From contig NZ_JADPVH010000003.1 of assembly GCF_026932795.1 (NCBI RefSeq), forward strand, positions 1 to 64,000: a stretch of DNA of 64,000 bases, written 5' to 3'. This stretch comes from Paenarthrobacter sp. Z7-10. GTDB lineage: Bacteria; Actinomycetota; Actinomycetes; Actinomycetales; Micrococcaceae. Positions 5,159 through 44,714 of this stretch are shown here, one piece after another; positions within the stretch are counted from its first letter, which is position 1, and the number at the start of each line of letters is the position of its first letter. The notes beneath the pieces were generated by a model. It was given only the letters and a program-made list of their open reading frames with translations. It had not been told where the DNA came from and ran no database searches. Made by a program: the position numbers and the translations under genes.

Positions 5159-6829
5159 ATGCCGTCCTTACGCCGTCATCATCCAGGCCGCCGCCGGAGC
5201 GCCCGGTGCCTCGCCGTGCTGACCGCCACCGCCGCTCTGGCTGTCGGAGCCAGCGGCTGCCAGGCCATCCAACCGCTGCAGGCTGCTCCGGAGCGGGCCG
5301 ACATCACCTCCGTCCCTTCGGATGGGCACAAGGTCGTCAACGGAGGGGACCTTGTTATGGCCCTTTCCGCCGAGCCGGACCGTCTCGATCCCACCACCTC
5401 CTCCTCGCTGTACACCCGCTACGTCATGCAGACCATGTGCCAGAAGCTCTATGACATAGACGCCAAAGGCACCTTGGTTCCGCAGTTGGCCACCGCCCTT
5501 CCGTCGATCTCCAAGGATGGGCTGACTGTCACCATCCCGATACGCAGCGACGCCACCTTCGCGGACGGAACCAAATTCAATGCCGAAGCCGTCCGCATCA
5601 CCCTGGACCGCGGACTGCACCTCAAGGGATCGGGGCGCAAGAGCGAACTGGGCCCGATCAGCACCATCAGGGCCGCCGATCCGACGCATGTCCAGATAAC
5701 CTACAAAAAGCCCTTCGCTCCGCTTACCGCGGCGCTTGCGGATAGGGCAGGCATGATTCTTTCGCCTAAGGCCCTCGCCGACGAGGGGGCCAAGTTCGGT
5801 GACCATCCCGTCTGCGTTGGGCCGTTCAAGTTTGTGAACCGAGTCCCGCAGACTTCCATTTCGGTGCAGCGGGACCCGTTGTATTACGATGCCGAAAAAG
5901 TGCATCTGGACACCATCACTTACCGGATCATGACCGACTCCAACATCCGTGCCGCGAACCTGCGCTCGGGGGACGTCCAGGTGGCCGACTCGGTGTCTCC
6001 GCAGGACGTCGACGCTTTGATGCAGCAAGAAGACATCGGCGTGCTGCAGGTTGGGTCGCTGGGTTACCAGGGTCTGACCGTTAACATTGGCAACACCGAC
6101 GGTGTCGGGATGCCTTACGGCAGCATCGATACGCCGCTGGCCAAGAGCGCCCCGGTGCGGCGGGCATTGTCCATGTCAATTGACCGCAAAGCCTTGGTGA
6201 ATACGGTTTTCAACAACTGGTACCAGGCCGCCTGCTCGCCCATAGCGCCGTCCAGTCCCTTTGCCTCGGCGGCGAGCAAGGCCTGCCCGGAGTTCAATCC
6301 GGCCAAGGCCAAGGAGTTATTGAAGCAGGCAGGGGTAAGCACGCCCTACCCACTCAAGATGCTGGTCAGCAATACTCCCGACACCCTCCGGTTTGCCCAG
6401 GCCCTGCAGGCGGCCGTCGCGGAGGGAGGATTCAAGCTGACCGTCCAGCCGGTTGAATATTCCACCCTGTTGGACCTGCAGAACCGTGGCGAGTTCTCGC
6501 TGCTGCAGCTGGGCTGGTCGGGCCGGGTTGATCCGCACGGGAACATGTTCAACTTCCTCTCCACCGGCGGTGGCAACAACGTGGCCGGTTACAGCAGTCC
6601 GGAGACGGACAAGCTGTTAAAGGCCGCGGCGCAGACGAACGACGACGGCGAACGGGCCGCGCTTTACGGACAGGTGGTGAAGAAGGTTGCCCAGGACAAT
6701 CCGATCATCTACCTGTACCGGGTTCGCAGCCTCACCGCCTACAGCAAGAAGGTGGCCGGTATTGAAACCTATGCCGACGGCGTGGTGCACCTCAGAGACG
6801 CCGCTTTCGTGCAGCAGCAGAAGGGCTGA
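5159..6829 (+). CDS. ABC importer substrate-binding lipoprotein, peptide family (SBP_bac_5)
   Basis: A 556-residue extracytoplasmic receptor that would capture peptides (or glutathione-like compounds) and pass them to the permeases downstream. It has a basic N-terminus, a hydrophobic stretch and the lipobox GASGC. The mature part shows the family-5 pattern: LVMALSAEPDRLDPTTSSS, KTLYDIDAKG-like segment, WxxFNF-type region replaced by NMFNFLSTGGGNNVAGY, and PIIYLYR near the end. Start ATG 5159 was chosen for AGGA six bases upstream; an in-frame ATG at 5108 would add a non-signal extension. First gene of an operon with dppB/C-type permeases, gamma-glutamyltransferase, a fused ATPase and a GntR regulator. 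Confidence 0.9.
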   Translation: MPSLRRHHPGRRRSARCLAVLTATAALAVGASGCQAIQPLQAAPERADITSVPSDGHKVVNGGDLVMALSAEPDRLDPTTSSSLYTRYVMQTMCQKLYDIDAKGTLVPQLATALPSISKDGLTVTIPIRSDATFADGTKFNAEAVRITLDRGLHLKGSGRKSELGPISTIRAADPTHVQITYKKPFAPLTAALADRAGMILSPKALADEGAKFGDHPVCVGPFKFVNRVPQTSISVQRDPLYYDAEKVHLDTITYRIMTDSNIRAANLRSGDVQVADSVSPQDVDALMQQEDIGVLQVGSLGYQGLTVNIGNTDGVGMPYGSIDTPLAKSAPVRRALSMSIDRKALVNTVFNNWYQAACSPIAPSSPFASAASKACPEFNPAKAKELLKQAGVSTPYPLKMLVSNTPDTLRFAQALQAAVAEGGFKLTVQPVEYSTLLDLQNRGEFSLLQLGWSGRVDPHGNMFNFLSTGGGNNVAGYSSPETDKLLKAAAQTNDDGERAALYGQVVKKVAQDNPIIYLYRVRSLTAYSKKVAGIETYADGVVHLRDAAFVQQQKG

Positions 6830-6837
6830 CGCCGACC

Positions 6838-7791
6838 ATGATCCGATACATCTTCACCAAACTTTGGCAGTCGGCCCTGACCCTGGTCCTGGCCTCCGTC
6901 GTGGTCTTCATCGGTGTGCGGGCCTTGCCCGGCGATCCGGCGCTGGCGATGGCGGGGGAGGAGGCCAGCCCGGAGCAGCTGGCCGCCATCCGATCCCAGC
7001 TGGGATTGGATCAGTCCATTCCCGCCCAGTACTTCGCCTTCGTCGGCAAAATGCTGCATGGGGACCTGGGCAACTCCACCCGCACCGGGACTGCCGTGAG
7101 GGACCTGATCGGCACCACACTGCCGGTGACGCTGTGGCTCTCCGTCTACGCGATCGTGGTGGCCGTCCTCGTCGGCATCCTCTTTGGCGTGATCGCGGAA
7201 CGCTTCCGCGGCCGATGGCCGGAATGGCTGACGAACGGCTTCGCACTGATTGGGCTGTCCGTGCCGAACTTCTGGCTCGGCATTCTTGCCATCCTGTACC
7301 TCGCCGTCACTCTGGGCTGGTTCCCGGCCTCGGGCTATGTTGACGTCATCGCCAACCCATTGCGCGGGCTGTATTACCTGACCCTGCCGGCCCTGATCCT
7401 GGGTACCTCGCTGGCGGCGGTGATCATGCGCCAGACCCGGGCGTCGATGATTGAAACCATGAGCACCGACTATGTCCGCACGGCCAAGGCCAAGGGTCTG
7501 GGCGGCGGGCGGGTGCTGTTCCGCTACGGACTGCGCAACTCGCTGATTGTGGTGGTGACGATTGTAGGGCTTCAGCTGGGTGGGCTGATCTCCGGAGCCG
7601 TGGTGACCGAACGTATTTTTGCGCTGCCGGGCTTCGGTAAGCTCACCTTGGACGCCGTCTTCACCCGCGATTATCCGGTGATCCAAGCCGTGGTGCTGAT
7701 CATTACCCTCAGTTACATCGTGATCAATCTAGCGGTGGACGTGCTTTACTCCGTCGTCAATCCCCGCATCCGAGTCGGAGGAAACAACTAA
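6838..7791 (+). CDS. ABC importer permease, DppB/GsiC type
   Basis: A 317-residue inner-membrane permease with six helices. N-terminus MIRYIFTKLWQSALTLVLAS and the segment RALPGDPALAMAGEEAS are typical of DppB-like subunits. The EAA coupling loop is seen around DYVRTAKAKGLGGGRVLFRYGLRN. It forms the membrane channel with the next gene product. The stop overlaps the following ATG by one base (TAATG), indicating tight coupling. Confidence 0.93.
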   Translation: MIRYIFTKLWQSALTLVLASVVVFIGVRALPGDPALAMAGEEASPEQLAAIRSQLGLDQSIPAQYFAFVGKMLHGDLGNSTRTGTAVRDLIGTTLPVTLWLSVYAIVVAVLVGILFGVIAERFRGRWPEWLTNGFALIGLSVPNFWLGILAILYLAVTLGWFPASGYVDVIANPLRGLYYLTLPALILGTSLAAVIMRQTRASMIETMSTDYVRTAKAKGLGGGRVLFRYGLRNSLIVVVTIVGLQLGGLISGAVVTERIFALPGFGKLTLDAVFTRDYPVIQAVVLIITLSYIVINLAVDVLYSVVNPRIRVGGNN

Positions 7792-29054: not shown

Positions 29055-30554
29055 CTACTGTTCCCAGGGCGCCTTCATCGGATAGTACTTCTCCAGGAAG
29101 TCCGTCACCAGCACGGCCCGTTCATCCGCGGCGACCTCCGGGAAGCTGCCATCGTTGAGGCAAAAGAAGTCAACATTCCGTTTGGCCAGCAGCCGGGGAA
29201 GATAGGTCAGGCCCGAGCGCATGGTGGTGTCGATGTAGCGGACCTTAGCATCGGTTTGGGTGACGGCCTGGCCGGTGAGCAGCGCGTAGTAGTGATACAG
29301 CGAGTTGGTTACCGATATATTGTCAGCGGCGCGGAAGGTGCTCGCGGCCGTGGCGGCAAATTCGGCTGGAAACTCCCGTTCCATCTCCAACATCACGCTG
29401 CGGCGCAGCGGCGCGGCGGCATGCTCCAGATGCCGGGTGGTGATCCGGCCAAACCTGTTCCACAGCAGTTTGCGGTTGACCCGCGCCGCATTTTCGAAGC
29501 CGCTTCGCTCTGCGGCGTTCTCACCCAGACCGATCCGGGTATCGGCTTGGATGAACTTGGTGATCCCGCCCGGGGTGTAGAACATATCGGGGCTGACCGG
29601 CCGGCCAAAAAACATGTCGTCATTGGAATACAGAAAGTGCTCGGCCAAGCCCTCAATGTGGTGCAGCTGGCACTCCACCGCCTGTGAATTATGGGTCGGC
29701 AGCACCGACGGGTCCGCGAAGAACTCCTCGCTGCGCACCACTGTCACGGTGGGGTGGTCGGCCAGCCAGGCCGGCACCGGGGAGTCGGTGGCGATAAAAA
29801 TCCGCCGGATCCACGGGGCGTACATATAGATGGAGCGCAGCGCGTACTTGAGTTCGTCGATTTGGCGGAAACGGGCCTCGTTGTCGTCGCCTTCACCGAG
29901 CACGACGCCGGTCTGCCGGGCCAGGCGGGCGGCCTGGTATTCCGGCGAGCTGCCGTCAACCCAACTGAACACCAGATCGATGTCAAAGCGGATGTCCGTG
30001 GCATGGTCGGCGAACATGTTCTCGATGGTGGGCCATTGGTGGCCGTAACGTTCCACCGTACCGCGCACCGCCTCCGCGTTGGGCAGGATGCGCCGGGTCA
30101 GGGAATTCTCCATCGGCAGTACCAGGGTTTCGCCCTCAAAGCTCCACAGTTCCAGCTGGACACCCAGCGACGGACCGTATGCCAGCCCGCCTTCAGGTTC
30201 CACCCGGGGACGGTAAAGCCGCAGGATGCGCGCCTTCCGGTTGCGTGCCAGTTCGCCGTCCGCCACCAGCAGCGAGGACTTTTTCTTTGCGTCGACCGTA
30301 ATCGCGTAGAACGGCTCGTTCACGCAGGCCGCGGCCAACGCCCGGCGCAGTTTTTTGCGCGACTTCCAGTCCACCGCAATCACCGGGCGTTCGTTATTGC
30401 CGCGCACCAGCAGGTAGGTGATCCCCGCATCCTCCAGCGCAGCGCGGATAAACAGCAGATCCTCCACGATGGCCTGGTACGGGGTGCGGTCCAAGTTCCG
30501 AAGTGCATAGCGGCCCTGATACTGAATGACGTCCGGCCGGTTGGTCAGCCGCAC
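29055..30554 (-). CDS. Stealth-family sugar-phosphate transferase
   Basis: A 499-residue Stealth protein, a family that transfers hexose-1-phosphate from UDP-sugars to surface glycans. CR1 is DIDLVFSWVDGSSPEY at 191-206; CR2 spans ARFRQIDELKYALRSIYMYAPWIRRIFIATDS; CR3 is FLYSNDDMFFGRPVSPDMFY; CR4 lies near the C-terminus. The first 180 residues form an N-terminal domain of unknown role (EDAGITYLLVRGNNERPVIAVDW), seen in some actinobacterial members. GTG 30554 is the only standard start; the frame stays open further upstream without a start codon and no clear ribosome site is seen, so the N-terminus is uncertain. Confidence 0.87.
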   Translation of the reverse strand: MRLTNRPDVIQYQGRYALRNLDRTPYQAIVEDLLFIRAALEDAGITYLLVRGNNERPVIAVDWKSRKKLRRALAAACVNEPFYAITVDAKKKSSLLVADGELARNRKARILRLYRPRVEPEGGLAYGPSLGVQLELWSFEGETLVLPMENSLTRRILPNAEAVRGTVERYGHQWPTIENMFADHATDIRFDIDLVFSWVDGSSPEYQAARLARQTGVVLGEGDDNEARFRQIDELKYALRSIYMYAPWIRRIFIATDSPVPAWLADHPTVTVVRSEEFFADPSVLPTHNSQAVECQLHHIEGLAEHFLYSNDDMFFGRPVSPDMFYTPGGITKFIQADTRIGLGENAAERSGFENAARVNRKLLWNRFGRITTRHLEHAAAPLRRSVMLEMEREFPAEFAATAASTFRAADNISVTNSLYHYYALLTGQAVTQTDAKVRYIDTTMRSGLTYLPRLLAKRNVDFFCLNDGSFPEVAADERAVLVTDFLEKYYPMKAPWEQ

Positions 30555-33241: not shown

Positions 33242-34093
33242 TTAGCCGCCCAGCACACTGCTTTTCAGTGCGGAACCCGATTCGGAAACCTGCTCTGCTA
33301 TCCACTGCAGGATTTCGGCTCCGGCCAGGACCCCGCCGAGGGCGGTGACATGCAAATTCGCTCCGCGATAGTCAAGTTCCGCCAGTTCCCCGTGCGCCGG
33401 CCGGATGGCAAGGTCGGCGTCATCGAGCATCTGCTGATCCAGCAGCGAGTCACCAGCCGCGATCACCAAAGCCGCGCCGGTCCGCCGTCGTACTTCCGCC
33501 ACTGCCGCCTGCTTGCTCACCGGTTCCGGCACGCAATACAGCTTCCGCCCCTGCAGCGACACCCGCCAGCCGACCGTGCGGCAACGCTGTTCCAGCGCAG
33601 GAACAAATTCCGCGGGCAGTGTTTCGCGATCCACTATGGCGTAGACGAAACGGTCTTCGGCGATGCGCAGGTTGAGAATCCAGGCGCCGAAGGCAGGGTC
33701 GGACAGGAAACCGTGCACCACCGGCAGTGGCGCGCAGTCAGCGGCGGTGCGGCGCGCGATCCGCGACTGCCAGGAAGCATCCGGTTCACCGCGGTACAGC
33801 AGTACGCCTCCGTTGCTCGTGACGGCATACTCCGGCGGTGGTCCCGGCAGCTGCACGCGCCGGTACTGCGCCATGGTTCGGGTGGTCACTGGCACGAAGG
33901 TCGCCTCAGTCGCCAGACTGCGCAGCAGCTGCTGCGCAGTCAGGGTCATAAACGATATCGGAAGGCCTTGGTACAGCTCCACCACCACGAGGGAAGGGGC
34001 CAGCTCGTCCGGGGTCTGCAGCCAGAACGCTTTGGGTGAATAGATCAGGGTACGGTCCAGATCGCAGGCGACGACGACGTGGCCGGCCGTCAT
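33242..34093 (-). CDS. HAD-family phosphatase of the Ter biosynthetic module
   Basis: A 283-residue HAD hydrolase. The nucleophile motif is CDLDRTLIYS (Asp11 and Asp13 by position). The C-terminal acidic motif is AAGDSLLDQQMLDDADLAI, and a Lys precedes it (SKQAAVAEVRRRTG). Cof-like cap region in the middle. HAD phosphatases of this kind recur next to PRTase/StiP and CitE genes in Ter gene clusters, where they are predicted to dephosphorylate a nucleotide-like intermediate. Start ATG 34093 follows AGGAGC. It is the last gene of the Ter operon, 51 bases after the large fusion gene. Confidence 0.82.
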   Translation of the reverse strand: MTAGHVVVACDLDRTLIYSPKAFWLQTPDELAPSLVVVELYQGLPISFMTLTAQQLLRSLATEATFVPVTTRTMAQYRRVQLPGPPPEYAVTSNGGVLLYRGEPDASWQSRIARRTAADCAPLPVVHGFLSDPAFGAWILNLRIAEDRFVYAIVDRETLPAEFVPALEQRCRTVGWRVSLQGRKLYCVPEPVSKQAAVAEVRRRTGAALVIAAGDSLLDQQMLDDADLAIRPAHGELAELDYRGANLHVTALGGVLAGAEILQWIAEQVSESGSALKSSVLGG

Positions 34094-34144
34094 GGCGCGC
34101 TCCTGACGGCGCGACAGCGCGGCGCGAATCTCACGGTGTGCTCC

Positions 34145-37123
34145 TCACAGTGCGGCCACCACGGCCTTGCCATCCACGCCAGTAGCTCCCTTCGTGAGCA
34201 CGGGGTGGATCAGTCCCACGCAGCTGTAGGGCAGCCCCGGCACCGGCACGATGTCCACACCGCGTTGCCCGGCAAGCAGCAAAACATGGGCAATATCCGT
34301 GCCCGCGTCCGGGTTCACCAGCACTTTCCACGGCACCCGGCGCAGCAGCACCCGGGTGGTTTCCCCGACGCCGGGCTTGACCAGATTCACATTGTTGATG
34401 CCGTACTCCTGGCTCAGCCGCTGCACCGTGTCCCATCCGGTCCAGCTGGGCGAGCGGTCCTCGGACGCAGCCCGCCGCAGGCCGCGCTCGACGGCGGACA
34501 CGGCATCGGGAAAATGCCTGCTTACCGCGTCCAGGAAATCCGTTGAAACGTCGCTGTCGGCAAGTTCCCGGTAGAACTTTGCGCCATGGAAATCGTCCCG
34601 GGCAATGAAATCGCGGTTATAGACCGTGCGCGACACCAGACCGGAGACGGTGGAATTCAGGCAGGCGGACGGGATCAGGAAATCCTCCCGTGTACCGTAG
34701 ATGCCCGCGCAGTGCCCCGGATCGGCCAGCACCGCCAAATCGGCACCGAAGCTGATGCCGTCCGTCTGCGCAAATGACTGCAGCGCGGCGGAGAGCTCAC
34801 GCGCAATAGCGCCCTTCCCCGTCCAGCCGTCCACAAAAATCACCTGCGCCGGGTCATGCCGGAGCGCCAGGTATCGCAGTGCAGTCTGATCCAGGCCAAC
34901 ACCGCGGACAATGCTCATGGTGTAGTGCGGAATGTCGAGGCCGTGGACCGTCCGGGCCCAGCGCCGCATCAGTATGCCGACGGGTGTCCCGGCCCGCGCC
35001 AGCGACACAAAAACAGGGCGCTGGCGCCGTGCGGCCAGAGCGAGTTCCGTGACGACGCCCACCGCCTCCGCAATCCGGGCGGAGGAGCGGGCCAGCGCTT
35101 CGCGGTACAGCTCCTGATACTCAGCGGACGGGGTGTACTCCACCGGCAGGGACTCGGCGTAATTGGCCGCCCCGGTCTGGATTGCGTGTTCGCGCTGGGC
35201 CGTCGGCGCCTCCAAGGCCAGATCGCCCAAGTCCTTCAGCAGCCAGCTTACGTCCTCGGGCGGGTAGGAGCCGAACTGCGGGCCCGTCAGGGGTTGGGGG
35301 AGGCCTGGAACCGGAGTGGCCGCCGTGGCTCGGGGCGTCCGGGCGGATGCGGCCAGCGGAAGCAGGACGACGACGACCTGGCGGCAGAGGGTGCTGAGGG
35401 CATCGGTGATGCTGCCCGGCCCGGTCAGGGCCGTACGGTCGGTTCCCGGTTCGGGCAGCAGCACGATGGTTGTGAAATGGCTGCCGGACCGGCTGAGGTT
35501 GTAGGCAAACCGTGTCCCGGCTCCGTCCTCGGTGGCGTCGAGACTGGAAAAATTTATGGCGGTGGCTACGGCATAGTCGGGCCGGTCCATCGGCACTATG
35601 GGCGACCGCGTGCTGGTGGAGAAGCGCACCCGCGCATTTCGCAGTTCCGCACTGAGCTGCTGTGCCACCAGCAGGGGCAGATGGATGAACTCTTCGGTTC
35701 CCAGCACCAGAATGGACGGATCCACGGGTTCGGTGCCGGAATCCGGCAGAACCGCAGGGTGGGCACCGAGGTGTGCCGCGATTTGCCCCGCCAGGGCCGC
35801 CGCGGCTGGCTCGGCATCCCCTGCCGAGGATGCCGCGTTGCCGAACCGGTCGCTGCGCAGCAGGGTGACAGAGCTCGTTGCAGGCTGCAGGAAACGGATC
35901 CGACCACGTTGTTGCCTAGCCTCGGAAGTGGGCGCGGCGGACGGCGGCGGGGCAACGGATCCGACCGGGTGCAGGTCGTCCAGCAGGCTCTGTGTCCGGG
36001 CGAGAATGTCCGCCTCAAGCTGGATGCGTCCCGTCCCCAGCGCGACAACCCGGACATCTATGCCCAGCTCGGCGGCCAGTCCGTCCAGCCGGAATCGATC
36101 CTCGTCACTGCGGAGATCCACCAGGGCCGCGACGACGTACGCCGGATGCGGGTCCGCCGCATGCAACTCCCGGATGGTATTCATGACGGTGGAACCCGTG
36201 CTGAGCTCGTCATCGACCAAGACCACCGCTCCGCCCCGTCTCAGCGGAACGGTGTCCATGGGCAGTAGCCGGTGTGCAGTGGCGTGCGAATGCCCTTCCT
36301 CAAAGCCGGCGTACGCTTCGGCGTCTTCGGCGAGGTGTCGGGTGGAATGCAGATAATAGGAGCCGATGGACTCCGCGACGAGGCGGCCCAGCCCGGTGGC
36401 GGTCTCGGCATAGCCAATGGTCACAATCTCAGGGCAACTGCGCCGCAGTCCCGCCAGGGTCTGCCGGAGCGCGGTCAGCCTATCCCGGATCGTTCGGCCG
36501 GTGACTCGATTCCAGCCGGCGGTGTCAGGGTTGCCCGGTCCGCCCCCGCCTGCGCCAGCGGCATTCGGGTGGCCCTGGCCGCCCCCGTTCGCGACTCTCC
36601 CATTGCCGCCCCCGCCTGCGCCAGCGGCATTCGGGTGGCCCTGGCCGCCCCCGTTCGCGACTCTCCCATTGCCGCCCCCGCTCGCGCCGCCGCCCCCGCT
36701 CGCGCCGCCGCCACCGCTCGCGCCGCCGTTCGCGCCGCCGTCCAGGCCGCTCCCGTTCGCGCCGCCGTCGTCCGCGAAGCCAGGATTGGCGTCGTCGACC
36801 TGACGCAGAATGGACGAAAGCTCCGCGGCAGAATTCCGGGCCTGCAGGATGCGGGCAGCATCGGCGGGCACATCCGCGACGGCGTCGAGCTGTTCGGCGA
36901 CGAGGACACCGAGCAGTTCGCCAGCTGCCAGAGCCAGCGCGGGTTCGGTGGGGACGTGCTTGGCAAGGACGCGCGAGACCAGCAGATGCGCGCGCTTGGG
37001 GTTCCGGCGCAATGCCAGGCCGACCAGCTCCTGCACCGGAATCAGACTTGCGGCGGCGTCCGTTTCGATGGCCACCCCCAGCTCCCGGTGCACGAAGTCC
37101 CCGGTCCAGCTGCGCCCACTCAT
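34145..37123 (-). CDS. Four-part fusion: PRTase, TRSP, StiP/PRTase_1 and PELOTA domains
   Basis: A 992-residue fusion of domains usually found on separate Ter-cluster proteins. Residues about 1-100 and 200-390 form a phosphoribosyltransferase with PRPP loop VVLVDDELSTGST (Asp304-Asp305). TRSP follows at about 400-600, with its name-giving motif T505-R-S-P508 in STRSPIVPMDRPDY. The StiP/PRTase_1 domain begins FGSYPPEDVSWLLKDL near 612 and runs to about 890. The end (NLVKPGVGETTRVLLRRVP...GLPYSCVGLIHP) is PELOTA-like, a probable RNA-binding fold. A Gly/Asn-rich insert at about 110-205 splits the first domain and contains two 66-base repeats. It is predicted to build a nucleoside-like metabolite. 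It overlaps the CitE-like gene by four bases (ATGA). Confidence 0.82.
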   Translation of the reverse strand: MSGRSWTGDFVHRELGVAIETDAAASLIPVQELVGLALRRNPKRAHLLVSRVLAKHVPTEPALALAAGELLGVLVAEQLDAVADVPADAARILQARNSAAELSSILRQVDDANPGFADDGGANGSGLDGGANGGASGGGGASGGGGASGGGNGRVANGGGQGHPNAAGAGGGGNGRVANGGGQGHPNAAGAGGGGPGNPDTAGWNRVTGRTIRDRLTALRQTLAGLRRSCPEIVTIGYAETATGLGRLVAESIGSYYLHSTRHLAEDAEAYAGFEEGHSHATAHRLLPMDTVPLRRGGAVVLVDDELSTGSTVMNTIRELHAADPHPAYVVAALVDLRSDEDRFRLDGLAAELGIDVRVVALGTGRIQLEADILARTQSLLDDLHPVGSVAPPPSAAPTSEARQQRGRIRFLQPATSSVTLLRSDRFGNAASSAGDAEPAAAALAGQIAAHLGAHPAVLPDSGTEPVDPSILVLGTEEFIHLPLLVAQQLSAELRNARVRFSTSTRSPIVPMDRPDYAVATAINFSSLDATEDGAGTRFAYNLSRSGSHFTTIVLLPEPGTDRTALTGPGSITDALSTLCRQVVVVLLPLAASARTPRATAATPVPGLPQPLTGPQFGSYPPEDVSWLLKDLGDLALEAPTAQREHAIQTGAANYAESLPVEYTPSAEYQELYREALARSSARIAEAVGVVTELALAARRQRPVFVSLARAGTPVGILMRRWARTVHGLDIPHYTMSIVRGVGLDQTALRYLALRHDPAQVIFVDGWTGKGAIARELSAALQSFAQTDGISFGADLAVLADPGHCAGIYGTREDFLIPSACLNSTVSGLVSRTVYNRDFIARDDFHGAKFYRELADSDVSTDFLDAVSRHFPDAVSAVERGLRRAASEDRSPSWTGWDTVQRLSQEYGINNVNLVKPGVGETTRVLLRRVPWKVLVNPDAGTDIAHVLLLAGQRGVDIVPVPGLPYSCVGLIHPVLTKGATGVDGKAVVAAL
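36541..36674. repeat. 66-bp direct repeat inside the fusion gene
   Basis: Two copies of a 66-base unit lie in tandem. The shared segment starting CCCGCCTGCGCCAGCGG occurs at 36545 and again at 36611. They encode (N)GRVANGGGQGHPNAAGAGGGG twice. A shorter CTCGCGCCGCC-type minisatellite follows at about 36680-36740. The block is in frame. Confidence 0.9.
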
Positions 37124-38331
37124 GACATCCCCGCTTCCAGCAGGTCAACGTACGTAATGTTCTCGGCGGCCACCCCGAACACGGCGGCCCGCCGCGCAGT
37201 GGCCGCTGCCCAGCCCTGGTGCGGCTTCATTTCATTCATCTTGTTCCGGTATGGCGAGGCCTTCGCCCCGCCGTCGCCCTGGCCCAGGATTTCTCCGGCG
37301 TCGAGGTATTCCTCATGGCTGATGACGGACATGGCGTGCACCAGCGGCACGTGCGAGGGGTGAATGACGGTCTTGCCCAACAGGCCGTTCGCCTGGTCAA
37401 GAGCAATCTCGCGCATCAGCGAGTCGAGGTTCCCCAGCAGCAGGCGCTGTCGCAGTTCCACGTCCTCGGCCGCGGCGAAGGGAGTGGCACGCAGCAGGGG
37501 ACGAAGCAGTCGCTCGGTGTTGGCGTAGTGCTCCCAGACGGGACCTGAAATCACGAATCCGTCCTCAGGCCGTCCCAGCAGATTGACGATGTCGCCGATC
37601 ATCGACGCCACCACTGACACGTCGTAGACGGTCAGATCCCGGGTGCGGCGAAGGCCGAAGGCGCTGCACATATCCGTGGCACCGAGCCGAACTGCCAGGA
37701 TGTCCTCCCGGTTGGCCTGCAAAACCCGACGGATGTTGGCCAGCGCAGCGGATCGGGTTTCAGCATGGATCATTACGGGGGATTCCAGGATGGGCATCAG
37801 CCGAAGCCGGCGGCGGGAGCTTGTTCGGCCTTGGCCGTGCTCGTTGTGGATCCGGTGCAGAGCATCCATGTACTGCTGGGCGATGCCTGACTCATTTTCA
37901 AACTTTGGCGCCACGAACCCGGCCAGGACGTTCAAGGATTCGCCGCAGCGCTGCGCCAGTCGCACCATCTGCTCCGGTGTGCGGACCCGGATGAAGAGCA
38001 GCGGCGTCTGGGCTGAATCCGGGGTGCTGTCCGACGCTGCTGTCAACATGCGGCGATGCAGCTGGGACAGGGTCTGAACCACGTTGGTTTCGGCATCGTC
38101 AACGGCACTGTCCGCGATGGAATCCTCCAGGCACAGGACCATGCTCATGCAGCCGCGCAGCGCCTGTTTGCGAATGTCCGCCGCCAGCTGCGGACGGTCC
38201 GCGGGGCAGTACAGGGTGGCGCCCAAAGCGGTGGCCAACAATGCCGGGTCGGATTCCGGGCTCAAGGTCCGTGGGCGGATGTGGAACAGCCGGCTGGTCT
38301 GTTCCTCGGACAGGAAGGCGAAATGCCGCAT
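37120..38331 (-). CDS. HpcH/HpaI aldolase / citrate lyase-like (CitE-like) protein, Ter-associated
   Basis: A 403-residue TIM-barrel protein of the CitE-like superfamily, which cleaves or forms C-C bonds with CoA thioesters. Mg-binding acidic residues are visible in VLCLEDSIADSA and LMPILESPVMI; RLGATDMCSAFG and LLGKTVIHPSHVPLV are family hallmarks. In Ter gene clusters a protein of this type accompanies the PRTase/StiP genes and is predicted to modify the same metabolite. ATG 38331 follows GAGGATTTCC. It overlaps the downstream fusion gene by four bases. Confidence 0.87.
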   Translation of the reverse strand: MRHFAFLSEEQTSRLFHIRPRTLSPESDPALLATALGATLYCPADRPQLAADIRKQALRGCMSMVLCLEDSIADSAVDDAETNVVQTLSQLHRRMLTAASDSTPDSAQTPLLFIRVRTPEQMVRLAQRCGESLNVLAGFVAPKFENESGIAQQYMDALHRIHNEHGQGRTSSRRRLRLMPILESPVMIHAETRSAALANIRRVLQANREDILAVRLGATDMCSAFGLRRTRDLTVYDVSVVASMIGDIVNLLGRPEDGFVISGPVWEHYANTERLLRPLLRATPFAAAEDVELRQRLLLGNLDSLMREIALDQANGLLGKTVIHPSHVPLVHAMSVISHEEYLDAGEILGQGDGGAKASPYRNKMNEMKPHQGWAAATARRAAVFGVAAENITYVDLLEAGMS

Positions 38332-38339
38332 GGAAATCC

Positions 38340-39338
38340 TCAGCTCCGGTTCCGCTGCCGGGCAGCTCGGGCCGTCATGGTGTAACCGAACTCCTGCCAG
38401 AGCGCGGCGTCGGGCGAATCTGCCGGGACCGCCTCGGCACGCAGTTCAAGCAAGCCGCCAACCTGCAGCAGCGCCAGCACAAACATCCCGTCGTGGTTGG
38501 GCGCCGCCACGCTGGCCGTGGCGCCGTCGAACAACTGCACTCCCAGCGGCTGCGGCCCGCGGCCGATGAAAAGGGCCCGCCGCAGATCGCGGACATGCCG
38601 CAGGGCCACCACCGCATCCGCCTCGACATATCCCACCAGGGGCCGGTGGCCGGAAGTGTCAATCGGGGTGCCGGCAAAACTGCCATCGACGGTGAGCGCG
38701 CCGGTGGTGAAATCGCTGCCTTCCCAGACCAGGGCCGACGTTCCGGTGATGATCAAACTGCCGACGGCGGACTGCCGGGCGTTAAGCCGGATCACGGGAT
38801 GGGCGCCGTCCAACTGCTTCACTTCAGCGATGCCGGGCGCTGGGAAAAGCCGCCCAGCCGAAGTGTCCGCGCGGCCATTGAGGACGGTGTCGGAGGCCGC
38901 GGCTGGATTCATCCCGGAGTTAGAAGCTGGGGCGTGCGGCCGTGTGCCCGGTGAAGTGGCGCCGGGCGGAGTCCGGCTCAGGCTGAGTCCGGCGCCGGTG
39001 GATCTGCCGGTGTCCGCCGCGGGGGAGCTGTTCTGAGGGCGGCTCAGGCTGAGTCCGGCGCCGGTGGATGTGCCGGTGTCCGCCGCGGGCGAGCTGTTCT
39101 GAGGGCGGCTTAGGCTGAGTCCGGCGCCGGTGGATGTGCCGGTGTCCGCCGCGGGCGAGCTGTTCTGAGGGCGGCTTAGGCTGAGTCCGGCGCCCGGGGA
39201 CTTAGCGGAGGGTTCGGCGACGGGCCGCGTCTGGTCCGGCTGGGACGCAGCGGACGGTTGGGGCGACGACGGGACGGACTTCACCCGTCGCCGCAGGTAG
39301 CGAAGGTCCGCACGGGTGCCGGACCGGTTCAGCGGCAC
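38340..39338 (-). CDS. Ter-operon protein with tandem 22-residue repeats, function unknown
   Basis: A 332-residue protein. After a basic start (MPLNRSGTRADLRYLRRRVK) come three perfect-to-near-perfect 22-residue repeats containing GAGLSLSRPQNSSPAADTG and a fourth partial copy. The last ~185 residues form a folded domain (VKQLDGAHPVIRLNARQSAVGSLIITGTSALVWEGSDFTTGALTV...LGVQLFDGATASVAAPNHDGMFVLALLQVGG) that I cannot assign. The repeat core GLSLSR resembles the NLSLTK strand at the N-terminus of the TerD proteins in the same operon. GTG 39338 starts three bases after the TerD-like stop at 39342. Confidence 0.7.
   Translation of the reverse strand: MPLNRSGTRADLRYLRRRVKSVPSSPQPSAASQPDQTRPVAEPSAKSPGAGLSLSRPQNSSPAADTGTSTGAGLSLSRPQNSSPAADTGTSTGAGLSLSRPQNSSPAADTGRSTGAGLSLSRTPPGATSPGTRPHAPASNSGMNPAAASDTVLNGRADTSAGRLFPAPGIAEVKQLDGAHPVIRLNARQSAVGSLIITGTSALVWEGSDFTTGALTVDGSFAGTPIDTSGHRPLVGYVEADAVVALRHVRDLRRALFIGRGPQPLGVQLFDGATASVAAPNHDGMFVLALLQVGGLLELRAEAVPADSPDAALWQEFGYTMTARAARQRNRS
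38981..39178. repeat. 66-bp tandem repeat, three copies
   Basis: Units starting GGCTGAGTCCGGCGCCGGTG occur at 38981, 39047 and 39113, with a partial fourth at 39179. They are in frame in the unknown Ter-operon protein and encode 22-residue repeats. Copies differ by only a few bases, so the expansion is recent. Confidence 0.95.
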
Positions 39339-39341
39339 CGG

Positions 39342-39893
39342 CTACAGGCCGATCCGGAAGTCGGCGGCCACACCGCGGAGTCCGGTGGTGTAGCCCTGAC
39401 CGAGGGCCCGGAATTTCCAGTCCTGGCGGTGGCGGTACAGTTCGCCGAACATCATGGCGGTGATGTTCCCACCTGGATTGAGGGGAACATCGAAGCGTAC
39501 GAGCTCACGGTTATCTCCGGTGGCTACCCGGATGTAGGCCTGCCGCACGGCCGAAAACGTCCCTGGTCCCCGGATCTCCGGATCAACGTAAACGATGAAT
39601 GCAATCTTGGCGACCTCCTCCGGCACAAGTCCCAGGTCCACGTCGATCTGCTCCTGGTCTTCATTCCCAGCGAACATCACAGACCCGTCCGGGCTGGCCA
39701 ATTGGTTGAAAAAGACCAGATGGTCGTCCGAAACGGCGAGCCCGGCCGCGTTGCACATTACCGCCAGCGGCACCAGTTCCGCCTGCGGGCCCCTGCCGTG
39801 GACGCTGGTCCACCCCAGTCCGACCAAGAGTGTCTTCAGTCCGGGATTTTCAGCCGTCAGCGCCGCATTGGCCCCGGCCACCAGGTTCCCCAT
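39342..39893 (-). CDS. Divergent TerD-family protein lacking the calcium motifs
   Basis: A 183-residue TerD-fold protein. It keeps LKTLLVGLGW, HLVFFNQLASPDGSV, IDVDLGLVPEEVAKIAFIVYVDP, ELVRFDVPL and the terminal WKFRALGQGYTTGLRGVAADF. It lacks the LDLDASA stretch (ELVPLAVMC here) and the GDNxTGxGxGDDE loop (GNEDQEQ here), both of which bind calcium in TerD. It may therefore act as a calcium-independent partner of the canonical TerD proteins (inference). Start overlaps the upstream gene by one base (TGATG). Confidence 0.82.
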   Translation of the reverse strand: MGNLVAGANAALTAENPGLKTLLVGLGWTSVHGRGPQAELVPLAVMCNAAGLAVSDDHLVFFNQLASPDGSVMFAGNEDQEQIDVDLGLVPEEVAKIAFIVYVDPEIRGPGTFSAVRQAYIRVATGDNRELVRFDVPLNPGGNITAMMFGELYRHRQDWKFRALGQGYTTGLRGVAADFRIGL

Positions 39894-40399
39894 CAGCGGC
39901 CGTCCAGGGTCAGCGATGAGGGCGCGAATTTGTCATTAAGGAAGCGTCCATGCGTGGAGAGCTCGGCAATGGCACCGACCCGGACCTGGTTCAGCAGGTC
40001 CCGTGAAATTGCTTCCAAAGTAGTCAGCTGTTCGGCCAAAAGCTGCGTCCCGCGGGAATCGGCGCCGCGTTCCTTATCGCTGAGCGCCAGGAACGCATGC
40101 AGCGGCGTGGGGATATAGCTGCAGATGATCGCGCTGAGCAGTACCCGCTGCTCGGTGGACGCGCCCTGATCCGCGACGGCGGCGACGACGGTGCGCAGAA
40201 CGTCGTCGACCTGCCGCAGCTGTGAGGAAATCAGCGCGGGCAGCTGCGCACCGGCCCGCCGGACCTCGGACCGGAGTGCGTCGAGGGCACGCGCCGTCTG
40301 CGCGTCCTCCGACTCCACCTCTGCTTCATGGCTCGCCGCCACGACGCCCGGCGGTGCCGGGGCGTTCTTAAACAGGGAACCAACAATCTTGCCAATCAC
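39893..40399 (-). CDS. XpaC-like helical protein, TelA partner candidate
   Basis: A 168-residue, largely helical soluble protein. Its C-terminal pattern (SYIPTPLHAFLAL...LLAEQLTTLEAISRDLLNQVRVGAIAELSTHGRFLNDKF) resembles the C-terminal region of XpaC, a protein that often accompanies TelA. The N-terminal transmembrane helices of XpaC are missing. The match is by pattern only. It lies 32 bases downstream of telA and overlaps the next TerD-like gene by one base. Confidence 0.6.
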   Translation of the reverse strand: MIGKIVGSLFKNAPAPPGVVAASHEAEVESEDAQTARALDALRSEVRRAGAQLPALISSQLRQVDDVLRTVVAAVADQGASTEQRVLLSAIICSYIPTPLHAFLALSDKERGADSRGTQLLAEQLTTLEAISRDLLNQVRVGAIAELSTHGRFLNDKFAPSSLTLDGR

Positions 40400-40431
40400 C
40401 GTTGACCGCCTACTAGTGGATACGGGAAATT

Positions 40432-41625
40432 TTAGCCGGTCTGATTCTGCTGGGCACGGTCCAGGTACGGCTTGGCTTTCTGCAGCCCCGACTCCAGCGC
40501 GAGGACAGTCCCTTCCATGTTCTGCGCCGCCTTGGACCGGAATGTATCGATCGCATCCATGGTGGCAAAGACGTTGTCGAAAGCCTTTTGCAGGGTTTCG
40601 ACGCTGACGCCGGAGCTGGACGCCTGTTCGTGGATGCGCACAGTCTGGTCCTTGAGCATCTCACTGGTGCTCAGGATCATGTTGTTCGTGGTGGTGTTGA
40701 TGGCGTCGATCTGGTCCAATACCATCTTCTGGTTCGCCAGCGCCTGGGCCACGATAACGGCGGTCCGCAGCGCCGAGATCGTGGTGGTCCGGGCCCGCTC
40801 CACACCCTTGATCAGTTCCAGGTTGTTCTTGCGGATCAGGTCCATGGCCAGATAGCCCTGGACCGAGACCGCCAGTTGGGTCAGGATGTCCTGGTGGCGC
40901 TGGCGGATCGGAAACAGCACGTCCGCCTCCAGCTTCTGTGCCTCATCGATGCGCCCGGCCGCCCGGGTCTGGTCAATGCGCTCCACGCAGGCGGCGTCGA
41001 GGGCCTTGGCGAAGACCGCATACTCACTGAGGCCCTGCATGGTCTCCCACAACTGGACCTTCTCGCCCGCCAGCGAAGCGTTGTCCTTGAGCAGTTCGTC
41101 CTGCCCGGTCATCAGCGACTTAATGATCTTGTCCAGCTGGGTCTGCGCGGATTCGTACTTCTGGAAGTACTTGGCCAGTTTGTTTCCACCTGGTATGAAG
41201 CCCAGGATCTTGCGGCCAACGCCGAGGTCCGCCTGGTTCGGCGTCAGGTCCTCCACTGTGGACCGAAGCTCGCCAAGGGTGTTGGCGACGGACATCTGCG
41301 CATTATTCTTGGTTTTTTTGGCCCCGGCCACGGACGTCGAGGAGCGTTCCAACAGGCGGCTGGAGTAGCCACTTGACGCGGTAATCTCCGAACCGCCCAG
41401 CTTGGAGATGCCGTCCACTTTGGATGTGAACTCCGGGCTGCGCGGATCGATTTTGGCGATGTCGGCAACGAAATCGCGGGCCTGGCGGGCAATTTCCGCC
41501 TGCCGCTCGGCTGGAACCGGAACCATTCCCGGGGCGTCGTCGGGCTCCACAATGGCCGGCGCGTCGGGGGCCCGCAGCACCAGGGCAGCGTCATTGGTGT
41601 CCGGAGGAGTCAGCGGTGAAGTCAT
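40432..41625 (-). CDS. telA: TelA/KlaA-family toxic anion resistance protein
   Basis: A 397-residue mostly helical cytoplasmic protein of the TelA family, associated with tellurite and other toxic-anion or envelope stress. Diagnostic segments are LGVGRKILGFIPGGNKLAKYFQKYESAQTQLDKIIKSLMTGQDELLKDNASL and VQGYLAMDLIRKNNLELIKGVERARTTTISALRTAV. GFIPGGNKL and RKNNxELIxGVxRAxxTT are the family hallmarks. The biochemical activity is unknown. It sits between the canonical TerD genes and the XpaC-like gene. Confidence 0.92.
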   Translation of the reverse strand: MTSPLTPPDTNDAALVLRAPDAPAIVEPDDAPGMVPVPAERQAEIARQARDFVADIAKIDPRSPEFTSKVDGISKLGGSEITASSGYSSRLLERSSTSVAGAKKTKNNAQMSVANTLGELRSTVEDLTPNQADLGVGRKILGFIPGGNKLAKYFQKYESAQTQLDKIIKSLMTGQDELLKDNASLAGEKVQLWETMQGLSEYAVFAKALDAACVERIDQTRAAGRIDEAQKLEADVLFPIRQRHQDILTQLAVSVQGYLAMDLIRKNNLELIKGVERARTTTISALRTAVIVAQALANQKMVLDQIDAINTTTNNMILSTSEMLKDQTVRIHEQASSSGVSVETLQKAFDNVFATMDAIDTFRSKAAQNMEGTVLALESGLQKAKPYLDRAQQNQTG

Positions 41626-41711
41626 GATTTACAAGCCTGTTCTACTGGTAGCGGCGGCCGCCCTCTGCCGCATGGGCCACGGGCAGCCGCATGGTTACTG
41701 CGGGCGGCTGG

Positions 41712-42302
41712 TCAGCCCAGGACCACGCCAAAGTCGTTGGCGATTCCTGCCAGCCCGGTGGCGTAACCCTGGCCGACGGCCTTGAATTTCCAGTCGGCGC
41801 CGTTGCGGTAGATTTCCGCGAACACCATCGACGTTTCCGGTGCGGCGTCCTCGCTGAGGTCGAACCGGACGATTTCATCGTCCGTGGTTTCGTTGACCAC
41901 CCGACAGTAGGCGCCACGGACCTGGCCGAAGTTCTGCCGCCGGGCATCGGCTTTGTCGATGGAGACAACAATGACAACGCGTTCGACGTCGGCAGCCACC
42001 TTGGTCAAATCGATCAGGATCTGTTCGTCGTCACCGGCGCCCTCGCCGGAACGGTTGTCTCCCTTGTGCACCACGGAGCCGTCCGCTGCCTGCGGCTGGT
42101 TGTAGAAAATGAAATCCGCCGACGAGCGAACCTTCCCATCGGCCGCGACCAGCAGGGCGGAAGCGTCAAGGTCAAAGGCCTCACCGCTGGTGGTGCGCGG
42201 ATCCCAGCCAAGACCAACCAGCGCCTGCGCCAAACCAGGGTCGGCCTTGGTCAGGGAGAGATTGTTCCCTTTTTCGAGTGTCAGTCCTGCCATTGAAACC
42301 AC
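41712..42302 (-). CDS. terD: TerD-family calcium-binding stress protein (copy 1)
   Basis: A 196-residue TerD protein. N-terminal strand LTLEKGNNLSLTKADPGL, then FDLDASALLV and the second calcium loop GDNRSGEGAGDDEQI are intact; the protein ends WKFKAVGQGYATGLAGIANDFGVVL. TerD proteins bind calcium and are thought to form membrane-associated assemblies with TerC under metal or phage stress. It is about 75% identical by eye to the neighbour at 42333, so they are tandem duplicates. Confidence 0.95.
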   Translation of the reverse strand: MVSMAGLTLEKGNNLSLTKADPGLAQALVGLGWDPRTTSGEAFDLDASALLVAADGKVRSSADFIFYNQPQAADGSVVHKGDNRSGEGAGDDEQILIDLTKVAADVERVVIVVSIDKADARRQNFGQVRGAYCRVVNETTDDEIVRFDLSEDAAPETSMVFAEIYRNGADWKFKAVGQGYATGLAGIANDFGVVLG

Positions 42303-42332
42303 TCCTTCACATTAGGTCTGGAAACGGGCAAA

Positions 42333-42914
42333 TCAGCTTAAGGTAATGCCGAAATCGGTGGCGATGCCATGCAGACCGGTGGCGTAGCCCTGGCCCACGG
42401 CCCTGAACTTCCATTCTGCGCCGTTGCGGTAGATCTCAGCGAAGATCATCGAGGTTTCGGCCGCGGCGTCCTCGCTGAGGTCATAACGGACCACTTCCTG
42501 CTCGGAGTCCTGGTTGACGACCCGGCAGAAAGCATCGCGCACCTGGCCGAAGTTCTGGTTCCGGGCGTCCGCCTGGTCGATCGAGACTACGATGACAACG
42601 CGTTCCACATCGGGCGCCAGCAGGCTCAGGTCGATCAGGATCTGCTCGTCGTCGCCCTCCCCCTCGCCGGTGCGGTTATCGCCCTGGTGAACCACCGAAC
42701 CGTCCTTGGTCTGAAGCTGGTTGTAAAAGATGAAGTCGTCCTGGGACCGGACTTTTCCATTGGATCCCACCAGCAGCGCGGAGGCATCCAGGTCGAAGGG
42801 CTCTCCGCTGGTGGTGCGGGGGTCCCAGCCGAGACCCACCATCGCACGCCGGAGACCGGGATCGGCCTTCGTGAGAGACAGGTTGTTGCCTTTGGTCAGG
42901 GTAAGACTTACCAC
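42333..42914 (-). CDS. terD: TerD-family calcium-binding stress protein (copy 2)
   Basis: A 193-residue canonical TerD. LTKGNNLSLTKADPGL, FDLDASALLVGSNGKV and GDNRTGEGEGDDEQI are all present, so both calcium sites should work. The C-terminus WKFRAVGQGYATGLHGIATDFGITL matches copy 1. It is separated from copy 1 by 30 bases and from the TerZ-like gene by 58. Confidence 0.95.
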   Translation of the reverse strand: MVSLTLTKGNNLSLTKADPGLRRAMVGLGWDPRTTSGEPFDLDASALLVGSNGKVRSQDDFIFYNQLQTKDGSVVHQGDNRTGEGEGDDEQILIDLSLLAPDVERVVIVVSIDQADARNQNFGQVRDAFCRVVNQDSEQEVVRYDLSEDAAAETSMIFAEIYRNGAEWKFRAVGQGYATGLHGIATDFGITLS

Positions 42915-42972
42915 TGGAGGGGTTCCTTTACATCCGGGAGTTGAGGGGACCGTGAGTTGGAGACCATTGAGG

Positions 42973-43563
42973 CTAAAGGGCTTTGGCTGCCGGGCCGATG
43001 AGGTCCATGGCGGTGCGGCCGTTGGCCCGCTCCCCGATGGCCTTGAATGACCAGCCGGAACCTTCGCGGGAAACCTTGGCCATGATCATCGCGGTGTGGC
43101 TGCCGGAATCCGTCAGCTGATAACGTGCCACTTCCGGAGTTCCGGCGGAAGAGTCATCCACCAGCCGGCAGAAGGCGTTTTCCACCTGGTCAAAGGTCTG
43201 CTGGCTGTAACTGCTGATGACAAACACTATTTGTGTCACGGCCTGCGATACCGCCGAAAGGTCCACCAGAATCGTTTCGTCGTCACCCTCACCAGCTCCC
43301 GTGAGGTTATCTCCGGTATGCGTGGCGGAGCGGTCTTTGCTGGCAAGCTGTTGAAACCAGACCACGTCCACGGCCTTGGCGGTTGCGTCAAAGAAGATAG
43401 CGGAAGCATCCAAATCAACTTCAGCCGTCTTGGCGCGGCCGAAGAGCCCGCGCTTAACGGGAGCGGCCGAGTCCCAACCCAGCCCCATCCGCACTTTCGT
43501 CAGGGCACCGCCGTCGTTCTTGGTCAACGATAAAGACTGGCCTTTTTGCAAACTCAATGCCAT
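42973..43563 (-). CDS. TerD/TerZ-family protein (copy 3, divergent)
   Basis: A 196-residue TerD-fold protein with intact calcium motifs: LQKGQSLSLTKND, VDLDASAIFFDA and GDNLTGAGEGDDETI. It differs from copies 1 and 2 by a basic insert after the first strand (APVKRGLFGRAKTAE) and a C-terminus ERANGRTAMDLIGPAAKAL instead of the usual GYATGL ending. This profile resembles TerZ-type proteins. It is the second gene of the operon, 35 bases after the TerC gene. Confidence 0.9.
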   Translation of the reverse strand: MALSLQKGQSLSLTKNDGGALTKVRMGLGWDSAAPVKRGLFGRAKTAEVDLDASAIFFDATAKAVDVVWFQQLASKDRSATHTGDNLTGAGEGDDETILVDLSAVSQAVTQIVFVISSYSQQTFDQVENAFCRLVDDSSAGTPEVARYQLTDSGSHTAMIMAKVSREGSGWSFKAIGERANGRTAMDLIGPAAKAL

Positions 43564-43598
43564 GGTTTCCGCCTCTTCTGTCGGTGTGGAACGGTCTT

Positions 43599-44714
43599 TC
43601 AGGATGAAACTCTAACGTCCGGGGATTCCTTCTCCCCGGTCAGGCGCCTATTGCGGGCAATCGATGAAAGCAAGGCCGCGAGAATGAAGACGACACCGAT
43701 CAGCCCGGTGATGACCTCGCTGATTTCAATGCTGATCGTGAGCAAAAGAATAACCGCCAAAGCCCCGATCGCCCAGTGCGCTCCATGGTCCAGGAAAACA
43801 TACTCGTCCAAGGTGCCCTGCCGGACCAGGTAAACGGTCAGTGAGCGGACAAAGATTGCGCCGATCAGACCAAGACCCAAGGCAATAATGATCGGATCGG
43901 AAGTGATGGCAAAGGCGCCGATAACGCCGTCGAAGGAGAATGAAGCATCAATAACTTCAAGGTAGAGGAAAAGGGCGAAAGCGGCCTTTCCCACTGCCTT
44001 CACCGCACCCTTGTTGCCGGCGATCTTGGCCGCGGCGGCCTCCACTTCTTCGGGCTCAATCTCCCGGTCGCCGTCGTCCTCGACGTTGAACAGCGAATCC
44101 AGCCCCGTGACAAGGAAGTAGGCGACCATCCCGAGTATTCCGGAGACCAGCACCTGCCCCTGCTTCGCGCCACCAAGCTGAGCGAATACAACCAAGGCAA
44201 CCAGCCCCACGACCAGCGCCGCGCTGTTGAATTTGCCCACCTTTGCCAGCGGCTTTTCCAGGAATCCGAGCCAGCGGATGTCCCGTTCCTCGAACATGAA
44301 ATCCAGGAAAATCATCAACAGGAAGATACCGCCGAAAGCCGCGATCTGCGGATGCGCTTCGTGCAGCAGGTAGCCGTAAGATCCCGGGGTGTGGACATCA
44401 CCCTTTTCAAGCGCAAGGTTCACGGCCTCAACGGGATTCAGTTTGGCCGTCACGCCGACGATGAGAAGCGGGAACAGGACACGCATGCCCAGCACGGCTA
44501 TAACAATGCCGACGGTCAGGAAGATCTTTTGCCAGAAATCGCTCATTTTTTCGAGGATGCGGGCATTGACCACCGCGTTATCGAAGCTGAGACTGACTTC
44601 CAGGACGCCGAGAATGGCGCAAAGAATCAGGGCGTTAGGGCCACCGTAAAGGAAAGCAATAACCAGCGCGACGACGGAGATCGCCATCGACCAGCCAAAA
44701 GTCTTGACAAACAC
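43599..44714 (-). CDS. TerC-family membrane protein (DUF475)
   Basis: A 371-residue membrane protein with about nine helices. LSFDNAVVNARIL and SFDGVIGAFAITSDP carry the conserved Asp residues of the TerC/DUF475 superfamily, which handles Mn2+ or other divalent metals in characterised members. A charged cytoplasmic loop (EDDGDREIEPEEVEAAAAKI) sits in the middle. GTG 44714 has GAAGGAG about 11 bases upstream. First gene of the Ter operon, preceded by a hairpin-bearing leader. Confidence 0.93.
   Translation of the reverse strand: MFVKTFGWSMAISVVALVIAFLYGGPNALILCAILGVLEVSLSFDNAVVNARILEKMSDFWQKIFLTVGIVIAVLGMRVLFPLLIVGVTAKLNPVEAVNLALEKGDVHTPGSYGYLLHEAHPQIAAFGGIFLLMIFLDFMFEERDIRWLGFLEKPLAKVGKFNSAALVVGLVALVVFAQLGGAKQGQVLVSGILGMVAYFLVTGLDSLFNVEDDGDREIEPEEVEAAAAKIAGNKGAVKAVGKAAFALFLYLEVIDASFSFDGVIGAFAITSDPIIIALGLGLIGAIFVRSLTVYLVRQGTLDEYVFLDHGAHWAIGALAVILLLTISIEISEVITGLIGVVFILAALLSSIARNRRLTGEKESPDVRVSS

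Follow-up and report, generated by a model that had tools for sequence, protein, structure and literature searches.

Recurrent fusion of two neighbouring Ter-module proteins into a single chain that probably holds two phosphoribosyltransferase-fold enzymes

The Ter module is predicted to make a nucleoside-like metabolite by means of two phosphoribosyltransferases (PRTases) and a HAD enzyme (PMC5512222, PMC7824862, PMC8115787), and a nucleotide-like signal has been proposed as the product of its two PRTases and HAD enzymes (PMC5512222, PMC7824862); the literature searched yielded no demonstrated reaction for any Ter-module enzyme. In its enterobacterial plasmid form, for instance in Klebsiella pNDM-MAR (L023), the module consists of an ATP-grasp protein, PRTase_2-TRSP, a HAD enzyme, StiP-PELOTA, and a C-C lyase. 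A core of PRTase, StiP, HAD, and lyase has stayed intact in Actinomycetota, Bacillota, Pseudomonadota, and Deinococcota. A jumbo phage has three of these, PRTase, HAD, and StiP, and no annotated lyase. The module of Acinetobacter phage ME3 (L024/L135) contains PRTase_2, HAD, StiP, and PELOTA, its TRSP region being too diverged for profile detection.

The DNA analysed here, hereafter the window, is a stretch of 64,000 nucleotides from Paenarthrobacter sp. Z7-10 (contig NZ_JADPVH010000003.1). A single open reading frame on its minus strand (34145–37123) encodes a 992-residue protein in which the Pfam families PRTase_2, TRSP, StiP, and PELOTA_1 follow one another, all four far above the curated Pfam cut-offs that served as threshold. 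An earlier note, made from the sequence alone, had predicted these four domains, in this order, on one chain, and had allowed that only one of them might prove real; the profile search bears out the full architecture. PRTase_2 occupies residues 33–365 (36029–37027; 5e-56) and has an APRT-like fold. The PRPP motif that the note had placed at about residues 298–312 is the loop VLVDDELSTGST, which includes D304 and D305 and ends at T312. TRSP spans residues 426–566 (35426–35848; 1.6e-21) with the motif S504-T-R-S-P508, for which the predicted position, 505–508, was exact. StiP covers residues 618–867 (34523–35272; 9e-101), with a RAGxP loop at 710–714 and the PRPP-like loop FVDGWTGKG at 763–771; its opening FGSY, expected near 612, begins at 617. 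PELOTA_1, with the motif KPGxxExTRxLLRRxP, extends over residues 894–973 (34205–34444; 5e-33), so that it starts slightly before the predicted residue of about 905. Overall, the note located the motifs to within about ten residues. These domains, like the neighbouring genes named below, all lie on the minus strand. When the whole protein was compared by sequence with the PDB, only a Gly-rich linker found matches, and PADLOC returned no match to a defence model.

The genomic setting agrees with the Ter operon that the note had proposed. Reading along the minus strand from 44714, the genes are a DUF475/TerC membrane protein (43599–44714; 3e-124, TerC 2e-16), three TerD genes (42973–43563, 2e-48; 42333–42914, 3e-81; 41712–42302, 1e-78), TelA (40432–41625; 2e-87), a 168-residue gene, and a TerD-domain protein (39342–39893; 1e-47). 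There follow a 332-residue protein that has three 22-residue repeats and no Pfam match (38340–39338), a C-C bond lyase with a citrate-lyase-like TIM barrel of the HpcH/HpaI type (37120–38331; PF15617, 9e-114), the fusion gene, and, 51 nt further downstream, a candidate HAD-IIB-type phosphatase (33242–34093) whose matches to HAD-IIB subfamilies, at an E-value of about 1e-3, fall below the cut-off. The ATG start of the fusion gene overlaps the stop of the lyase gene by 4 bp (ATGA), and the whole series from DUF475/TerC to the HAD candidate likely forms one operon. With PRTases, a C-C lyase, and a sub-threshold HAD beside TerD, TerC, and TelA, the interval 33242–44714 has the composition that defines a Ter biosynthetic module. 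Tandem repeats of 66 bp (22 residues), mutually unrelated, occur in two genes of the operon: one (36540–36688) makes up part of a Gly-rich insert in PRTase_2, and the other (38974–39194) is a Ser/Pro-rich stretch of the 332-residue protein. A few kilobases past the operon, on the same strand, lies a Stealth-family protein with all four Stealth regions (29055–30554).

The window thus shares with Klebsiella pNDM-MAR the PRTase_2-TRSP, StiP-PELOTA, HAD, and lyase families beside TerD and TerC, but the Klebsiella plasmid encodes them as two proteins with the HAD gene between, together with an ATP-grasp. No match to the Ter ATP-grasp family PF15632 exceeded the cut-off in the window's genome, and an ATP-grasp annotation is likewise absent from the Gram-positive plasmid loci examined; since these Gram-positive modules are without it, their final product may not be chemically the same as the enterobacterial one. 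Closer counterparts are a Mycolicibacterium alvei plasmid (L022), Tsukamurella (L136), and Lactococcus pFI430 (L141), which have the window's gene order from the lyase to the HAD-position gene but keep PRTase_2-TRSP and StiP-PELOTA as separate genes that overlap by 4 bp. Fusions from Streptomyces (L002, L031–L036) have the same four domains on one chain. They differ in having shorter PRTase_2 regions, with no insert as long as the window's, and they form a separate clade with a long-standing fusion of its own.

Comparison with split relatives shows what was joined. The note held that in many Ter clusters the domains are separate proteins; they are indeed separate elsewhere, but as two proteins and not four, because all complete split loci examined are divided into PRTase_2-TRSP and StiP-PELOTA. 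The fusion joins two neighbouring proteins. In Gram-positive split loci the order is lyase, PRTase_2-TRSP, StiP-PELOTA, HAD-position gene, and the split pair is adjacent, usually with a 4-bp overlap (ATGA or GTGA); in the nearest congeners the two genes overlap by 17 nt. In proteobacteria and Deinococcus the pair usually flanks the HAD gene, an arrangement that would explain why fusions are seen only in Actinomycetota.

The junction itself (about residues 586–617; 35273–35368) records the event. Counted from the final strand of TRSP up to FGSY, it measures 81 nt in the window and 109 nt in the split congeners (L026/L027), and this 28-nt shortening indicates that two genes were merged into one frame. 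Across its codons (residues about 588–617) the StiP frame contains no ATG, GTG, or TTG, so that a stand-alone StiP protein would lack an ordinary start there. The missing start codon and the shortened overlap segment also make it less likely that the fusion stems from a frameshift in the assembly.

Several relatives depart from the paired arrangement. A plasmid of Streptomyces sp. NBC_01471 (L140) carries a stand-alone StiP-PELOTA gene (5965–7095) with neither a PRTase_2-TRSP partner nor annotated Ter genes nearby (13 kb covered); it adjoins an alcohol-dehydrogenase-type gene and a gluconokinase. Three loci of another actinobacterial family (L018, L019, L020; f18) have a distant StiP-like family next to a PRTase_2-like gene, and in L018 the loop reads VDGWTSGGG and the PELOTA-like tail is degenerate. 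A locus labelled Sporosarcina beigongshangi (L041) holds a module almost identical to that of G422, a genome of the window's own family, which suggests a mislabelled or contaminated sequence or a very recent transfer.

The fusion is widespread in actinobacteria. Full-length StiP matches outside the window number 15 in a sample drawn evenly from the phylum, and 13 of them are fused. The 80 nearest genome loci, a set biased to near relatives, include 79 informative ones, and in 74 of these, mostly from Streptomyces, a single frame encodes both TRSP and StiP. Fusions occur across Streptomyces, Nocardia-like, and some Micrococcales genomes, and all sampled Streptomyces loci with the full module keep the fusion. 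Within the window's genus, three of four other sampled genomes carry the module, split in each case, and two strains of Subtercola boreus have the fused and the split form. On a maximum-likelihood tree built from 643 columns, the window's row adjoins four split rows representing two congeners; six changes of state are needed, five of them forced by well-supported branches, and none of the bootstrap trees comes down to just one change. The fusion is thus recurrent: standard in Streptomyces, it has come and gone repeatedly in the actinobacteria, with counts that do not separate gain from loss. The note had held that its reading would fall if the fusion proved both common and well described. This one is common (74/79), but no account of the four-domain fusion was found in the literature searched, an absence that is weak evidence with the primary 2012 paper on the module outside its scope. 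The Ter module, the two-PRTase idea, and the link between PRTase and PELOTA have been proposed before; this analysis adds figures for the recurrence of the fusion, its origin by the merging of frames, structural arguments against calling StiP a protease, and the similarity of TRSP to PRTase_2.

What the fusion says about function depends on how this history is read. Overlapping neighbours might fuse and split by small indels without functional effect, so that the fused state means nothing beyond adjacency. Five or more state changes on the tree, the two forms in the Subtercola boreus strains and within the window's genus, and a difference of only 28 nt being enough all suit such a neutral account. 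We nevertheless find it somewhat unlikely, because the state is long-standing and kept in all sampled Streptomyces loci with the full module, and because recurrent fusions always join the same two genes and, in the loci examined, never involve the lyase or HAD genes, which lie just as close. The note had taken the fusion to mean that the domains act in sequence on one substrate. Flipping of the fusion state among close relatives is good evidence that the two halves act together and weak evidence for tight channelling; with at least five flips, the pair evidently functions whether split or fused, which supports the interaction of two proteins but not obligatory channelling.

The two halves of the protein were modelled apart for structure prediction. 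In these models the Gly-rich, low-complexity insert of PRTase_2 (about residues 116–202; 36518–36778) appears disordered (pLDDT < 50), and residues 591–600 of the linker have a pLDDT of 47. The PRPP loop of PRTase_2 is canonical: D304, D305, T309, G310, and, one residue on, T312 are conserved at 91–100%. Its top Foldseek matches are adenine PRTases (probability 1.00), and with a DDxxxTGxT loop in a modelled PRTase fold the domain is predicted to be a type I phosphoribosyltransferase. TRSP aligned with PRTase_2 in hhalign at a score of 28.8 against a shuffled maximum of 18.1 (0/200), with a probability of only 29.5%. The aligned part is the first half of PRTase_2, a strand-loop-helix plus the STR motif, and profile comparison found no similarity of TRSP to generic PRTases. 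TRSP is possibly a degenerate half of PRTase_2 that has lost the PRPP loop.

StiP is named as a cysteine protease in Pfam and in RefSeq annotation, and if the name were right the fusion would put a PRTase on one chain with a protease of processing or regulatory function. The model of the domain, of high confidence (pLDDT 90.7, pTM 0.90), matches instead PyrR/HPRT-type PRTases (Foldseek probability 0.96–1.00; TM-score to the target only 0.3–0.5). Nearly all the specific matches (probability at least 0.96) are of this type for StiP and of the L7Ae type for PELOTA, and the 50 fold matches listed for StiP include PRTases and no cysteine protease. PLP enzymes, which head the StiP fold search, were rejected at a TM-score of about 0.2 and an rmsd of about 20 Å. 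At the profile level StiP scores 34.2 with HPRT-type PRTases against a shuffled maximum of 22.9 (60 shuffles; hhalign probability 50%), in register over both loops. UPRT, considered as closest relative for its shared RAG loop, reaches 24.6, below the HPRT-type score, and direct comparison of StiP with PRTase_2 is weak (3%, with 2 of 200 shuffles as high). No profile similarity was found to a transglutaminase, the one cysteine-protease-like fold compared as a control. Nor did we find a conserved catalytic cysteine: the best columns reach 67% and 64% among 36 non-redundant sequences, and the cysteine in the SACLNS motif, a candidate for this role, is missing from the Klebsiella and ME3 phage members. 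On this evidence a protease is highly improbable; StiP probably has a PRTase fold, and the chain would hold two PRTase-fold enzymes.

The fold that PRTase_2 (APRT-like) and StiP (PyrR/HPRT-like) have in common is that of adenine and hypoxanthine PRTases and PyrR. StiP differs from those proteins in its shortened DGWTGKG loop and its low sequence identity (10–20%). Its RAGxP and FVDGWTGKG motifs are invariant or nearly so. A canonical two-acid PRPP loop was not found in StiP: VDGWTGKG keeps the first Asp, the Thr, and the Gly, has Gly for the second acid, and is two residues shorter than DDxxxTGxT. With the loop shortened and the second acid gone, the substrate may differ, and judging from this variant StiP may not use PRPP.

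PELOTA_1 brings in a possible link to RNA. All 42 matches in a profile search of the PDB are of the L7Ae/eL8/Snu13/S12/p38 type (best 2.8e-4), and Foldseek retrieves 2hvy_D and 5oql_W at probability 1.00, so that the modelled domain is an L7Ae-like, putatively RNA-binding fold. It shares with the kink-turn binders L7Ae, eL8, and Snu13 both the fold and a KxGxxExxR-type motif, and K28, E33, and R36 are invariant in the PELOTA alignment (A4). PELOTA_1 differs from them in being bacterial and fused to StiP, and in its NE pair, in which the Glu is invariant but the Asn is not conserved. In L7Ae the Asn-Glu pair contacts the sheared G.A pairs of the kink-turn. RNA binding by PELOTA is plausible from the fold, and the note had raised the possibility that the domain presents an RNA. 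A stronger version would have PELOTA bind a kink-turn-like RNA (or tRNA or the ribosome), with the two PRTase domains modifying RNA or exchanging one base. The L7Ae likeness in sequence and structure speaks for it, as do the match of KPGxxExTRxLLRR to the L7Ae motif KxGxNExxKxxER, the presence of PELOTA in nearly all StiP proteins sampled, and the precedent of PyrR, an RNA-binding protein of PRTase fold (PMC5512222). Against it stand the replacement of the Asn, in most sequences by Gly or Ala, and the citrate-lyase-like lyase and HAD phosphatase, which fit small-molecule chemistry; the docking study available (PMC5571608) is modelling only. We consider this version unlikely. More speculative still, and quite doubtful, is a three-lobed PRTase machine with an active PRTase_2, a decayed TRSP derived from it, and a StiP with an unusual loop, in which the L7Ae-type domain delivers to RNA and two phosphoribosyl transfers or base exchanges on an RNA-bound substrate generate a stress or phage-defence signal.

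The reading we prefer, at a probability of roughly two in three, sees the protein as a bifunctional enzyme that serves biosynthesis in the Ter nucleoside-like-metabolite module and was formed from fused PRTase_2-TRSP and StiP-PELOTA genes. In such an enzyme PRTase_2 would use PRPP to phosphoribosylate a base-like acceptor that the lyase would supply or trim, and StiP, with its variant loop, would carry out a second phosphoribosyl transfer or an exchange. TRSP, itself non-catalytic, would be the half that partners PRTase_2, PELOTA would probably lend binding to RNA or to a nucleotide-like ligand, and the HAD enzyme would dephosphorylate the product, presumably read by the TerD, TelA, and TerC stress proteins of the same operon. 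With the fusion, two enzymes that already work together would be held close to each other at a fixed stoichiometry.

Records of plasmids and chromosomes with the Ter module number in the thousands, with 2,567 matching plasmid records. The PRTase fold of StiP and the lack of a conserved cysteine suggest that the widely propagated label 'cysteine protease StiP' misleads annotators and should change. For biochemistry, the natural fusion offers a single construct with both predicted PRTases of the module.
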